Shown: positions 43,879 through 48,341 of the stretch, piece by piece
How positions within the stretch are numbered: position 1 is the stretch's first letter
Layout of the letters: each line of letters starts with the position of its first letter
Translations under genes and position numbers: made by a program
Notes under the pieces: model-generated
The model's input: the letters and a program-made list of their open reading frames with translations, nothing else
Database searches by the model: none
Told to the model about the DNA's origin: nothing
Assembly: GCA_017473945.1 (NCBI GenBank)
Contig: JAFUIW010000066.1
Coordinates: 1-48,341, forward strand
DNA length: 48,341 nt
Source: Methanobrevibacter sp.
GTDB taxonomy: Archaea; Methanobacteriota; Methanobacteria; Methanobacteriales; Methanobacteriaceae
Direction: 5' to 3'

Positions 43879-44041
43879 ATTAATCAGTTCCTTTTGTTTT
43901 TCTAATTATATTATATAATGTTACTCATTAATATTTGTTAGTATGAGTTAAAATGAATACATTTAAATACTTTAAAATTACAAATTGTTATTAAAGTAAA
44001 ATGTATATGAAATTTATAATAACTAACTGGAGATGATTCAC

Positions 44042-45298
44042 ATGAATGATTTCGATGATTTGGAAAATTCTTCAAAAGAACAATTGATAGAAAAAGTTGA
44101 ATCTTTAAGAGAAGAAATAGATTCCCTAAGAGAAGAAAAATCCAAAGCCAAAAGTAACTTGATGTGGAAAGTTAGGAAATTAGAAAAGGATAAAGTCCTA
44201 ATAGAAAATGAAAAAATAAGATTAGAAAGAGAAACTAAATCCTTGCGTTCAGAGGTAGACAGATTCAGGTCTCCACCTTTAGTTTTGGCCACTATTACTG
44301 AAGTTTTAGATGATCACAGAATGACTGTAAAAAGTAGCACCGGACCTAGTTTCCTTGTAAATTACTCAAAATTCTTAGATGAAAAATTATTAGTGCCGGG
44401 TTCCAGAGTAGCACTAAATCAACAAACATTCGGTATTGTGGAAGTATTGCCATCAGAGAAAGATGCAAATGTTTCCGGAATGGAAATTGAAACAAAACCA
44501 GATATTACTTACGATAAAATCGGTGGTTTAGAGGAACAAATTGTTGAAGTTAAAGAAACTGTTGAATTGCCTTTAACCCATCCTGAATTATTTGAAAAAG
44601 TTGGTATTGAACCTCCTAAAGGTATACTGTTATATGGGCCTCCTGGAACAGGTAAAACTTTACTTGCAAAAGCTGTAGCAAATGAAACCAATGCAACTTT
44701 CATAAAGATTGTAGCATCTGAATTTGTTAAAAAATACATTGGTGAAGGTGCAAGACTTGTACGTGAAGTCTTCGAGCTTGCAAAAGAAAAGGCACCAGCC
44801 ATTATTTTCATAGATGAACTTGATGCCGTAGCTGCAAAAAGACTTAAAAGTTCCACAAGTGGTGACAGGGAAGTTCAAAGAACTTTAATGCAACTTTTAG
44901 CAGAACTTGATGGATTTGAATCAAGAGGGGATATCGGTATTATAGGAGCAACCAATAGGCCGGATATCTTGGATCCTGCATTACTGCGTCCCGGTCGTTT
45001 TGACAGATTTATAGAAGTTCCACTTCCTAACGATGAAGGAAGAAGAGAAATTCTTAAAATCCACACTAAAAACATGTCCTTTGATGAAGAGGCGGATGTC
45101 GATTTACTTGCCAGTTTAACTGACGGACTTTCAGGTGCTGATTTAAAGGCAGTATGTACTGAAGCAGGTATGTTCGCTATTCGTGAGGAACGTGATAAGA
45201 TTACTGTAGATGACTTCATGGATGCAATCGAAAAAGTCATGAGTAAAACTAGTGAAGAAGATTTATACAAAACCGAAGCCGGAGTAATGTTTGGATAA
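44042..45298 (+). CDS. pan: Proteasome-activating nucleotidase PAN
   Basis: PAN is the hexameric AAA+ unfoldase that feeds the archaeal 20S proteasome. From the ATG at 44042 (after GGAGATGA; an ATG at 44033 lies inside that site) it is 418 aa: an N-terminal coiled coil (about 10-75), an OB domain, then the AAA+ core. Walker A is GPPGTGKT (199-206), Walker B is IIFIDELDA, and GATNRPD and LRPGRFDR follow. The C-terminus is MFG, so the usual Hb-Tyr-x docking motif has Phe in place of Tyr. A C/D box sRNA lies directly downstream. Confidence 0.94.
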
Positions 45299-45306
45299 AT
45301 CTTTTG

Positions 45307-45377
45307 AAAAATAAGCCTATGATGAACCCTATGAGCTCTGATACGTGATGAATGATGGGCGAGCTGAGGCTTATTTT
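45307..45377 (+). ncRNA. C/D box sRNA (2'-O-methylation guide)
   Basis: The element has C box ATGATGA (45319-45325), D' box CTGA (45338-45341), C' box GTGATGA (45345-45351) and D box CTGA (45364-45367), all exact to the archaeal consensus. Both guide regions are 12 nt. The ends form a 10-bp perfect stem (45308-45317 with 45368-45377). The D guide (45352-45363) contains TGATGGGCG, which pairs over 9 nt (one G-U) with the universal 16S segment CGCCCGUCA; the fifth nucleotide upstream of the D box faces C1402 (E. coli numbering). The D' guide would pair with AGCUCAUAGGGU, not identified. The gene begins 8 nt after the PAN stop, so it is probably processed from the pan mRNA. Confidence 0.85.
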
Positions 45378-45431
45378 ATTAATCTTTTTTTTCTAAAACT
45401 TTATTTAAAAGTAAATTCTAATATTATAATT

Positions 45432-46451
45432 ATGTTATTTAATAAAAATGATGAAAGTGCCGGTGAAAGGGTTCTTTATAAAACAAAGCCTAACATGTTT
45501 TTAGGTTGTAAAAAAGCTATTTTTGGTGTTGTTTTATTGGTTATTGTTTTTATGATATCTCCGGGTATAATTCAGTTCATCGGGGAAATGCAAGTTTATT
45601 TGATTTCTCAAATCAGACTTCCTTTAACCAGATATGCTGCAATAGCATTTTTTGTAGTCATTCTTATTATAATACTTTATATAATTTGGCAACTTCTTAA
45701 ATGGTATTCCCTTGAATATACATTGACAGATTCAAGAATTATCATTAAATCCGGATTGTTATCCACTAAAAAGAATTACATGCCTTATACTACAATTCAG
45801 GATATCAACTCTTCTCAAAGCATTTTTGCCAGGTTGTTCAATGTAGGAACGGTTTCCGTTTTCAGCGCTTATGATAATAACTTGATGAAAATTGAAAATG
45901 TTTCCAATCCGTCAAAAGTTGAAGAGATAATTTTTTCAAACATGATGAATCATAGAAACGTTCCGGAATATCCTCAAAATTATGTTGAGAGGGGTGCGCC
46001 TAGACAGTTCCCTGAAAATAATTATCAAGAGGATTATTACGATGAGTTTGAACCGATTACTCCAATCAGTCATGAGAGAAGTTCATACTCCAGAAGGGAA
46101 TATGAATATTATCCTGAAGAGTTCAGCTATCCTGAGCATAATGTAAATAAATATGAGTATGAGCCTTATGAGGATGAGTTGGACTATAATGTGGATAGGG
46201 TCGTGAATAATTCCCGCGATAATATAAGATATGAAGGAGGGCCAAAGACATTTTCAAATGACACTCATTATAATGAAGCAAGGGACTATTATTCAAATGG
46301 TAGTGATGATTATTATCAGGAAAATGAACCTAATATTCAATATGATGAAAGTCCAGAAGATGATTATCATGGTGGGCCTGAACAAGTAGATGAAACAGAC
46401 GATTCTAGTGAAACTGTTATCAGAAGACATTTTGATAAATTCAAAAAATAA
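45432..46451 (+). CDS. PH-like domain (bPH2/DUF304) membrane protein with Tyr/Asn/Asp-rich tail
   Basis: The 339-aa protein has two membrane helices (roughly residues 25-48 and 60-88). A bacterial PH-like domain follows (YSLEYTLTDSRIIIKSGLLSTKKNYMPYTTIQDINSSQSIFARLFNVGTVSVFSAYD). Residues from about 175 to the end form a low-complexity tail of Tyr, Glu, Asn, Asp and Pro. The function is unknown for this family. The ATG at 45432 is chosen because the upstream in-frame ATG (45345) would run through the sRNA. The tail looks disordered and fast-evolving. Confidence 0.7.
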   Translation: MLFNKNDESAGERVLYKTKPNMFLGCKKAIFGVVLLVIVFMISPGIIQFIGEMQVYLISQIRLPLTRYAAIAFFVVILIIILYIIWQLLKWYSLEYTLTDSRIIIKSGLLSTKKNYMPYTTIQDINSSQSIFARLFNVGTVSVFSAYDNNLMKIENVSNPSKVEEIIFSNMMNHRNVPEYPQNYVERGAPRQFPENNYQEDYYDEFEPITPISHERSSYSRREYEYYPEEFSYPEHNVNKYEYEPYEDELDYNVDRVVNNSRDNIRYEGGPKTFSNDTHYNEARDYYSNGSDDYYQENEPNIQYDESPEDDYHGGPEQVDETDDSSETVIRRHFDKFKK

Positions 46452-46478: not shown

Positions 46479-47516
46479 ATGGAATTATTATGCATACAAT
46501 CTCAGGAGCATCCGGAATTACCATTGGCAGAACTCAAAGCTGTTATGGAATGTGAAAATATTCATGCCGAAATAAATGTAATCTGTGAAGGTTTGGTTAT
46601 TCTAAGTGATATTCCTGAAGATGAAATTGATGATTACTATAATATTCTAACCAGAAGATTGGGATATACCCATGAGGTTCATGAACTTATAAAGAAATCA
46701 TCAGTTGAAAGTATAAGCAATGACATTTCATTAATTGACTGGCCGAAATATATAGATGAAAACTTTGCCGTAAGGGTTAAAAGATTTAATTCACATGTCG
46801 ATACAGTTGCAGCGGAGCGAAAAATCGGGTCACTGATACTTGACAACTGTGATGATGTCAAGGTAAAACTGAAAGAACCGAACTCCTTAATACGTGTCGT
46901 TGCATTTGAAGATATTCTATATATAGCTATTGAAAAAATTAAATTGAACAAAAAGCATTTTGTTGAATGTAAACCTCATAAAAGGCCTTTTTTCTATCCA
47001 GGATCCATGAGTCCAAAATTGGCAAGATGCATGGTGAATCTATCAAGGGTAAAAGCGGGCCAGCTGCTGCTTGATCCGTTTTGCGGAACTGGTGGAATAC
47101 TGATTGAAGCTGGACTGATAGGATGCAAGGTGCTGGGTTCTGATATTTACTGGAAAATGAAAAATGGGGCTGCAATTAACTTGGATTATTTTGGAATTAC
47201 AGATTATAGGACATTCAATATTGATGTTCGTGAACTTAAGATGTATGAAAAAGTATCTAGTGTAGTCACTGATCCTCCATATGGAATATCTACTTCTACT
47301 GGAGATATTGAAGGAAATGACATTTTTAAGGAATTTTTCATTTCTGCATATAATAATATGAGGGATGATGCATATCTGTGTATGGCAAGTCCACATTATG
47401 TTGACCTGAAGCCGATTGCTGATGAGGTTGGATTTGATATTGTTGAGCAATATGGAATTAAGATGCACAGAAGTTTGACAAGAATTATTTCCGTTATTAG
47501 AAAAAAGCAAGAATAA
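46479..47516 (+). CDS. tRNA (guanine10-N2)-dimethyltransferase (TrmG10/Trm11 type)
   Basis: The 345-aa protein has an N-terminal THUMP-type region (RVKRFNSHVDTVAAERKIGSLILDN-like). FYPGSMSPKLARCMVNLSRVKAGQLLLDPFCGTGGILIEAGLIGCKVLGSD then gives SAM motif I. VVTDPPYGIST places the catalytic DPPY at residues 265-268. This matches archaeal Trm11/TrmG10, which modifies G10 of tRNA. It could also be a related THUMP methyltransferase. A GGTGAATTATA region precedes the ATG. Confidence 0.82.
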   Translation: MELLCIQSQEHPELPLAELKAVMECENIHAEINVICEGLVILSDIPEDEIDDYYNILTRRLGYTHEVHELIKKSSVESISNDISLIDWPKYIDENFAVRVKRFNSHVDTVAAERKIGSLILDNCDDVKVKLKEPNSLIRVVAFEDILYIAIEKIKLNKKHFVECKPHKRPFFYPGSMSPKLARCMVNLSRVKAGQLLLDPFCGTGGILIEAGLIGCKVLGSDIYWKMKNGAAINLDYFGITDYRTFNIDVRELKMYEKVSSVVTDPPYGISTSTGDIEGNDIFKEFFISAYNNMRDDAYLCMASPHYVDLKPIADEVGFDIVEQYGIKMHRSLTRIISVIRKKQE

Positions 47517-48046
47517 TATAGTTACATTTATATACTAGTTATTTTTATTTGGGTCATATTTGAGATAAAAATTACTTATTTTTCTTCATTTAATAATTTG
47601 GATAATATACTTTTTTTATTTTGAGATTTTTCGATTTTAAAAATTTTTATTTCAATATTTAATTAAATTATTTTTTCTTCAAAAATAATTTATTTTTACA
47701 TGTTATATGACAAATAATGCATTTTAAAATTAATTTATCTTATAATAATATATTTTGCAATATTTTTTAATTGATTTTGTTACTAAAATTTGTCTGTCTA
47801 TTAGATGTGCTATATGTTTTTATGGCGTTGGTCTAAGTTTTATTGTATTAACAATTATGACTATGATGACTGCTTTTCCACATGTAGCTATACTTTAGTG
47901 AGTACTTGAGTTTTTTCAAGTATGATGTTGGTTTTGTAGATGTGGTGAATTAGTTACAAATTAATTTGTTTCAAATTTATTGTGTATACTCGTCTATATT
48001 TTTAGCGTACTTCATAATACTTATTATTATGTCTGTTATGTGTTCA
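47517..48046 (+). promoter_or_regulatory. rRNA operon leader and promoter region
   Basis: This 530-bp stretch is very AT-rich and has no convincing gene. TATA-like boxes are at about 47528-47536 (TTATATAC) and 47739-47755 (ATAATAATATATTTT), either of which could drive the rRNA operon. A short hairpin (TACTTGA...TCAAGTA, 47903-47922) and a 14-bp perfect palindrome (ACAAATTAATTTGT, 47956-47969) precede the 16S 5' end. They may be processing signals, but I could not identify a bulge-helix-bulge because its partner lies beyond the window. Confidence 0.45.

Positions 48047-48341
<295 letters not shown>

Follow-up and report, generated by a model that had tools for sequence, protein, structure and literature searches.

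A conserved two-guide box C/D sRNA downstream of pan in Methanobrevibacter, with predicted targets in elongator pre-tRNA-Met and rRNA

The window, a stretch of 48,341 nt from Methanobrevibacter sp., carries a short element with the boxes of a guide RNA just behind pan, the gene for the proteasome-activating nucleotidase. Two questions are raised by this locus: whether the element is a genuine small RNA (sRNA), and which nucleotides its two guides would direct to methylation.

An intact box C/D sRNA downstream of pan

The element contains RUGAUGA, CUGA, UGAUGA and CUGA in this order, guides within the 10–12 nt range and a terminal stem, as archaeal box C/D sRNAs do (Table 1). Between the pan stop at 45298 and the TGATGA of box C there are 21 nt. 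The earlier note had described a complete C/D sRNA behind this stop, with four boxes, two 12-nt guides and a 10-bp stem, and all of these parts were read in the sequence.

Table 1. Features of the sRNA locus (window coordinates)
Feature	Coordinates	Strand	Evidence or remark
pan, proteasome-activating nucleotidase	44033..45298	+	TIGR01242, 633 bits
Complete box C/D sRNA	45308..45377	+	sequence reading
Closing stem, 5' strand, 10 bp	45308..45317	+	sequence, fold
Box C, ATGATGA	45319..45325	+	RTGATGA in 114/114 loci
D' guide, ACCCTATGAGCT, 12 nt	45326..45337	+	pairs with exon-intron junction of elongator pre-tRNA-Met; predicted +5 at C34
Box D', CTGA	45338..45341	+	114/114 loci
D'-C' loop, TACG	45342..45345	+	varies among relatives
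Box C', TGATGA	45346..45351	+	114/114 loci
D guide, ATGATGGGCGAG, 12 nt	45352..45363	+	candidate targets 16S C1402 (9 bp) and 23S C2558 (10 bp), E. coli numbering
Box D, CTGA	45364..45367	+	114/114 loci
Closing stem, 3' strand	45368..45377	+	sequence; pairs with 45308–45317
T-run 3' of the sRNA	45385..45392	+	sequence; possible archaeal terminator

No four-box RNA was found in shuffled genomes, and the fold of the sRNA was more stable than that of its shuffled versions (z -2.96). A permissive Rfam search matched the C/D families sR1 (E 2.4e-8) and sR2 (E 9.7e-7) to the locus, both below their gathering scores; at gathering thresholds, the search of the window returned no C/D family. Together with a conservation that is limited to the boxes and guides, these results indicate that the element is not a product of chance, and they confirm, at the level of sequence, a real box C/D sRNA that is ordinary in kind. 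A T-run was located no more than 60 nt past box D in 105 of 114 relatives' loci. The scan of the locus for sigma-70 promoters and terminators returned nothing, which is uninformative where the host is an archaeon.

A mechanically called open reading frame (45345–46451) starts at a GTG at 45345, inside the sRNA, and automatic annotation could therefore hide the sRNA. The start of the bPH_2-domain protein is more likely the ATG at 45432 than this GTG. Further downstream (46479–48341) there is a TIGR01177 methyltransferase gene with a THUMP domain. It is flanked by the bPH_2 gene and by a 16S rRNA gene, of which only the 5' end is present because the contig end cuts the rest.

Conservation of boxes and guides

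The end of pan together with the sRNA was used as a query against 67 genomes of the genus, yielding 65 pan 3' loci that extend into the sRNA, from 64 genomes; an additional, 65th genome matched via a pan paralogue only. This set was not preselected on guides. One locus is cut by a contig end; in the others, boxes and guides differed at most by single changes that leave the paired core intact, and variation was seen in the spacer that separates pan from the stem, in the outer stem and in the D'-C' loop. An alignment of the pan 3' region in relatives had been proposed in the earlier note as a check, and its boxes and guides proved to be kept.

Beyond the genus, a pattern of C' box, guide and D box matched 139 of the 152 genomes of a phylum sample and 90 of its 91 high-quality genomes, and a reversed control pattern gave 0 matches in the same sample. 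In the sole high-quality genome without the pattern (G075), the elongator tRNA-Met junction described below was likewise not found, reflecting either loss or an assembly gap. Across 114 aligned rows (113 distinct loci), positions 2–11 of the D' guide and positions 3–11 of the D guide were invariant and positions 1 and 12 varied; guide ends, loop, stem and flanks drifted while boxes and guide cores stayed fixed. As the family-level homologues were located with the D guide, its invariance there is partly selected, and outside the genus only that of the D' guide is free of selection. Three relatives (L339, L340 and L347) had a changed first D' guide nucleotide (G or A), which fits an unpaired first guide position.

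The C-terminus of pan was recognized 5' of the sRNA in 98 of the 114 loci, mostly 13–40 nt away, and in most of the others the upstream sequence was too short for a judgement. A position so close and so conserved would also suit an L7Ae-bound kink-turn in the pan 3' untranslated region that regulates pan and guides no methylation. We consider this extremely improbable, since a kink-turn alone needs no guides, yet neither guide changes whereas loop and stem drift, and one of the guides matches an anticodon-intron junction along its full length.

The D' guide and wobble C34 of elongator pre-tRNA-Met

The earlier note had pointed the D' guide toward tRNA D arms and left its target open, suggesting a scan of tRNA and rRNA. 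That scan, covering the ARAGORN tRNAs of the closed genus genome G007, reference rRNA and readable Methanobacteria 23S rRNA, gave one outstanding match, which lies elsewhere: the guide pairs at 12 of 12 positions with GGCTCATAGGGT in the intron-containing tRNA-Met(CAT), with a G.U at position 1. The junction in this elongator pre-tRNA-Met reads GGCUCAUA / GGGU (exon / intron), and the +5 rule falls on the wobble nucleotide C34, opposite guide position 5. Because the intron begins after A37, guide positions 1–8 pair with the exon and positions 9–12 with the intron. For the D arm, the best score was 8/10 (tRNA-Ala) versus 10/10 for pre-tRNA-Met, and this candidate was rejected. No rRNA target scored above 8.5 in the reference rRNA or in the readable 23S sequences.

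The same junction was present in the window's own genome (G000:C108:29561-29580) and, within two mismatches, in 137 of the 152 genomes; most of the listed matches were exact and a few of those with two mismatches were due to chance. In the genomes without it, the elongator gene either went undetected altogether or was truncated at a contig end, and no intronless elongator tRNA-Met was seen among the genomes checked. The calculated duplex of the D' guide was -21.3 kcal/mol with pre-tRNA-Met, compared with -10.7 for spliced elongator tRNA-Met, -10.8 for the initiator and -11.6 for tRNA-Ile2. These comparisons suggest that C34 of the intron-containing elongator pre-tRNA-Met is very probably the target of the D' guide.

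The guide site overlaps the splicing motif. Pre-tRNA-Met can form a canonical bulge-helix-bulge with a central CUCA/UGGG helix, which contains C34, and two 3-nt bulges, and the D' guide covers its entire 5' side. As the two share a strand, guide binding and splicing should compete, from which we infer that C34 would be methylated before splicing. The same overlap could be read as the work of a folding chaperone whose main task is to restrain the splicing motif or the folding of rRNA, methylation being secondary; roles of this type have been suggested for C/D sRNAs of archaea (PMC4644070). However, the +5 positions are exactly C34 and C1402, which are known 2'-O-methyl sites in other organisms (PMC2584109, PMC11542601), and a mainly chaperoning RNA seems quite improbable to us.

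The D guide between 16S C1402 and 23S C2558

The earlier note had assigned the D guide to C1402 in helix 44 of 16S rRNA, which stands as a good candidate by the +5 rule. A 16S model gave no match in the window's own genome, where rRNA operons are masked as N. Since Methanobacteria 16S was masked, E. coli and two haloarchaeal operons with the same helix 44 stretch served as stand-ins, and C1402 was the top match in E. coli 16S. The pairing is present but comprises only 9 bp (guide positions 3–11), one of them a U.G wobble (position 8), and there is a conserved A.C mismatch at position 2 in which A is opposite C1399. Overlooked at the time was a 23S site that pairs equally well: in TTCGCCCATTAA, guide positions 2–11 form 10/10 pairs, and +5 falls on C2558 (E. 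coli numbering), which lies in helix 92 (the A-loop stem), on its 3' strand. Three genomes from a sister genus within Methanobacteria, not from the window's genus, supplied this sequence; it was found in Methanofastidiosum too, and a search of viral contigs gave no 23S match.

Score statistics favour the 23S site: about 2% of shuffled operons attained its score, whereas 62% of shuffled rRNA operons attained that of the 16S match, which alone is not significant. The 23S site would also account for two conserved guide bases, the A at position 2 and the U at position 8. Its duplex energy is nevertheless no better, being nearly equal to that of the 16S duplex (-17.0 vs -17.4), and the invariant G at position 10 only wobbles with 23S, whereas it forms a Watson-Crick pair with 16S C1407. 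Comparative biology favours 16S. The methylated site listed for P. abyssi, yeast, human and plants is C1402, with E. coli Cm1402 aligned to yeast Cm1639, human Cm1703, Arabidopsis Cm1645 (guided by AtU43) and P. abyssi Cm1369 (PMC11542601); for seven other archaea, helix 44 methylation predictions are sparse and at other positions (PMC4644070). An all-species pattern scan returned many bacterial chance matches and at least 15 matches with archaeal titles. Among the 15 archaeal matches listed, the four-box pattern was recovered automatically in 13, by eye in one (archaeon P6-8), and was absent in one (Methanosarcinaceae). Among these listed matches, C/D RNAs with guides GAYGGGCGG occurred in Methanofastidiosia, Diapherotrites, Aenigmatarchaeota, DHVE2 and others, and such guide versions (GACGGGCGG) suit 16S better than this 23S sequence. 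In Methanofastidiosia and related archaea (L411–L426), the C1402-type guide was paired in every locus read with a D' guide ending CGACAGCGT; the partner guides of C1402-type RNAs in other archaea had no clear target in reference rRNA. We regard 16S C1402 as the leading candidate for the rRNA target, and a guide for 23S C2558 in its place as unlikely.

The D guide might also serve both sites, its core TGATGGGCGA being a compromise with one wobble to each. The nearly equal energies would agree with this, as would the retention of the same core in sR1 of Thermococcales and the absence from the 114 loci of a C at position 8 or an A at position 10, which would suit 16S only or 23S only, respectively. 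However, the D' guide is equally invariant without any compromise, so slow change may suffice, and the family-level search pattern itself set position 10 to G. A double target is possible in our judgement, with the weight of the evidence somewhat against it.

Whichever rRNA site is used, the earlier note's idea that two machineries reaching one nucleotide would be new does not hold: RNA-guided methylation of C1402 is already known in yeast, human, Arabidopsis and P. abyssi (PMC11542601), and its main argument for novelty fails with that.

C/D RNAs and protein machinery in Methanobacteria

In G007 (about 1.84 Mb unmasked), scanning with exact and loosened boxes gave two credible matches, namely this sRNA and a C/D RNA in the tRNA-Trp intron (G007:C1:1050098-1050248, minus strand, one box mismatch), which is presumably the expected kind of C34/U39 guide. 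Four further matches had two box mismatches, and shuffles gave none. With a three-box pattern, the window's own genome (exact boxes only) and G144 each yielded one match, this sRNA. Further three-box matches were obtained in G004, G008 and G119, and the fourth box was absent in every locus fetched, that is, in all but one G008 match. By contrast, the small, deep-branching genome G067 (1.24 Mb) gave 23 three-box matches, about 20 of them distinct; most of those fetched had four boxes, and several were clustered. G067 is, we infer, a hyperthermophilic Methanothermus, and G144 belongs to Methanothermobacter by the same inference. Within the reach of these scans, which miss RNAs with degenerate boxes, the sRNA is apparently the sole free-standing canonical C/D sRNA in six non-hyperthermophilic Methanobacteria genomes, versus about 20 in G067.

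The window's genome encodes fibrillarin (PF01269, 2.3e-86), and the adjoining 383-aa open reading frame looks Nop5-like by eye. The RsmI model TIGR00096 gave no match in this genome.

Proposed mechanism and significance

The best explanation, which we hold to be highly probable on the comparisons above, is a two-guide box C/D sRNA for pre-tRNA-Met C34 and 16S C1402, possibly also 23S C2558. The sRNA would be transcribed either from a promoter of its own or along with pan, as the 3' tail of that transcript, and would assemble with L7Ae, Nop5 and fibrillarin. The D' guide would pair across the 5' splice site of pre-tRNA-Met with +5 on C34, full pairing needing the first intron nucleotides. The resulting Cm34, placed before splicing, may help to restrict the Met tRNA to AUG. 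The D guide would direct methylation of 16S C1402, for which guides exist in eukaryotes and other archaea, and might do so at C2558 as well.

Methionine and tryptophan tRNAs are the two one-codon tRNAs. A wider and rather doubtful reading is that the C/D machinery of non-hyperthermophilic Methanobacteria has been reduced to this RNA and the tRNA-Trp intron. Fibrillarin would then be kept for the Met and Trp wobble cytidines and one rRNA guide, itself a compromise between C1402 and C2558, so that a single RNA would mark tRNA-Met and both ribosomal active centres.

What appears to be new is an rRNA guide and a pre-tRNA-Met guide on one RNA, unchanged across the class; the unusual features are apparently this pairing of guides and the lone survival of the RNA. 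If the predicted targets are right, the two guides travel together across a class, the retention of the tRNA-Met intron would be linked to a guide that requires it, and these archaea would offer a minimal natural system in which to ask why archaea retain fibrillarin.

Comparison with known systems

H. volcanii has a C/D RNA that guides Cm34 formation in pre-tRNA-Met (PMC6601510, citing Joardar 2011), and Pyrococcus sR49 is predicted as a pre-tRNA-Met C34 guide in PMC2584109, which reports 18 archaeal candidate sRNAs; a member of the Methanobacteria may be among those already predicted. In common with these two, the sRNA described here is a free-standing C/D RNA with a predicted Cm34 target in intron-containing elongator pre-tRNA-Met. 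Unlike them, its second guide is an rRNA guide and its gene lies behind pan, and the Rfam sR49 model scored only 13.1 bits on it. The best Rfam match is sR1 of Thermococcales (RF01152; 37.9 bits, below the gathering score of 45). As read in genomes from a group akin to Thermococci, sR1 has an identical guide core, but there it is the D' (first) guide, with a different partner guide.

Outside the archaea, AtU43, a U43-type snoRNA, guides methylation at the equivalent of C1402 (18S Cm1645; PMC11542601), but it is a eukaryotic RNA for which we know of no tRNA-Met guide. Bacterial RsmI also 2'-O-methylates C1402, but as a protein-only enzyme. Human SNORD97 and SCARNA97 are C/D RNAs that guide Cm34 of elongator tRNA-Met; in their case, pairing involves the tRNA's anticodon stem-loop (PMC6601510), whereas the D' guide described here pairs with the exon-intron junction.
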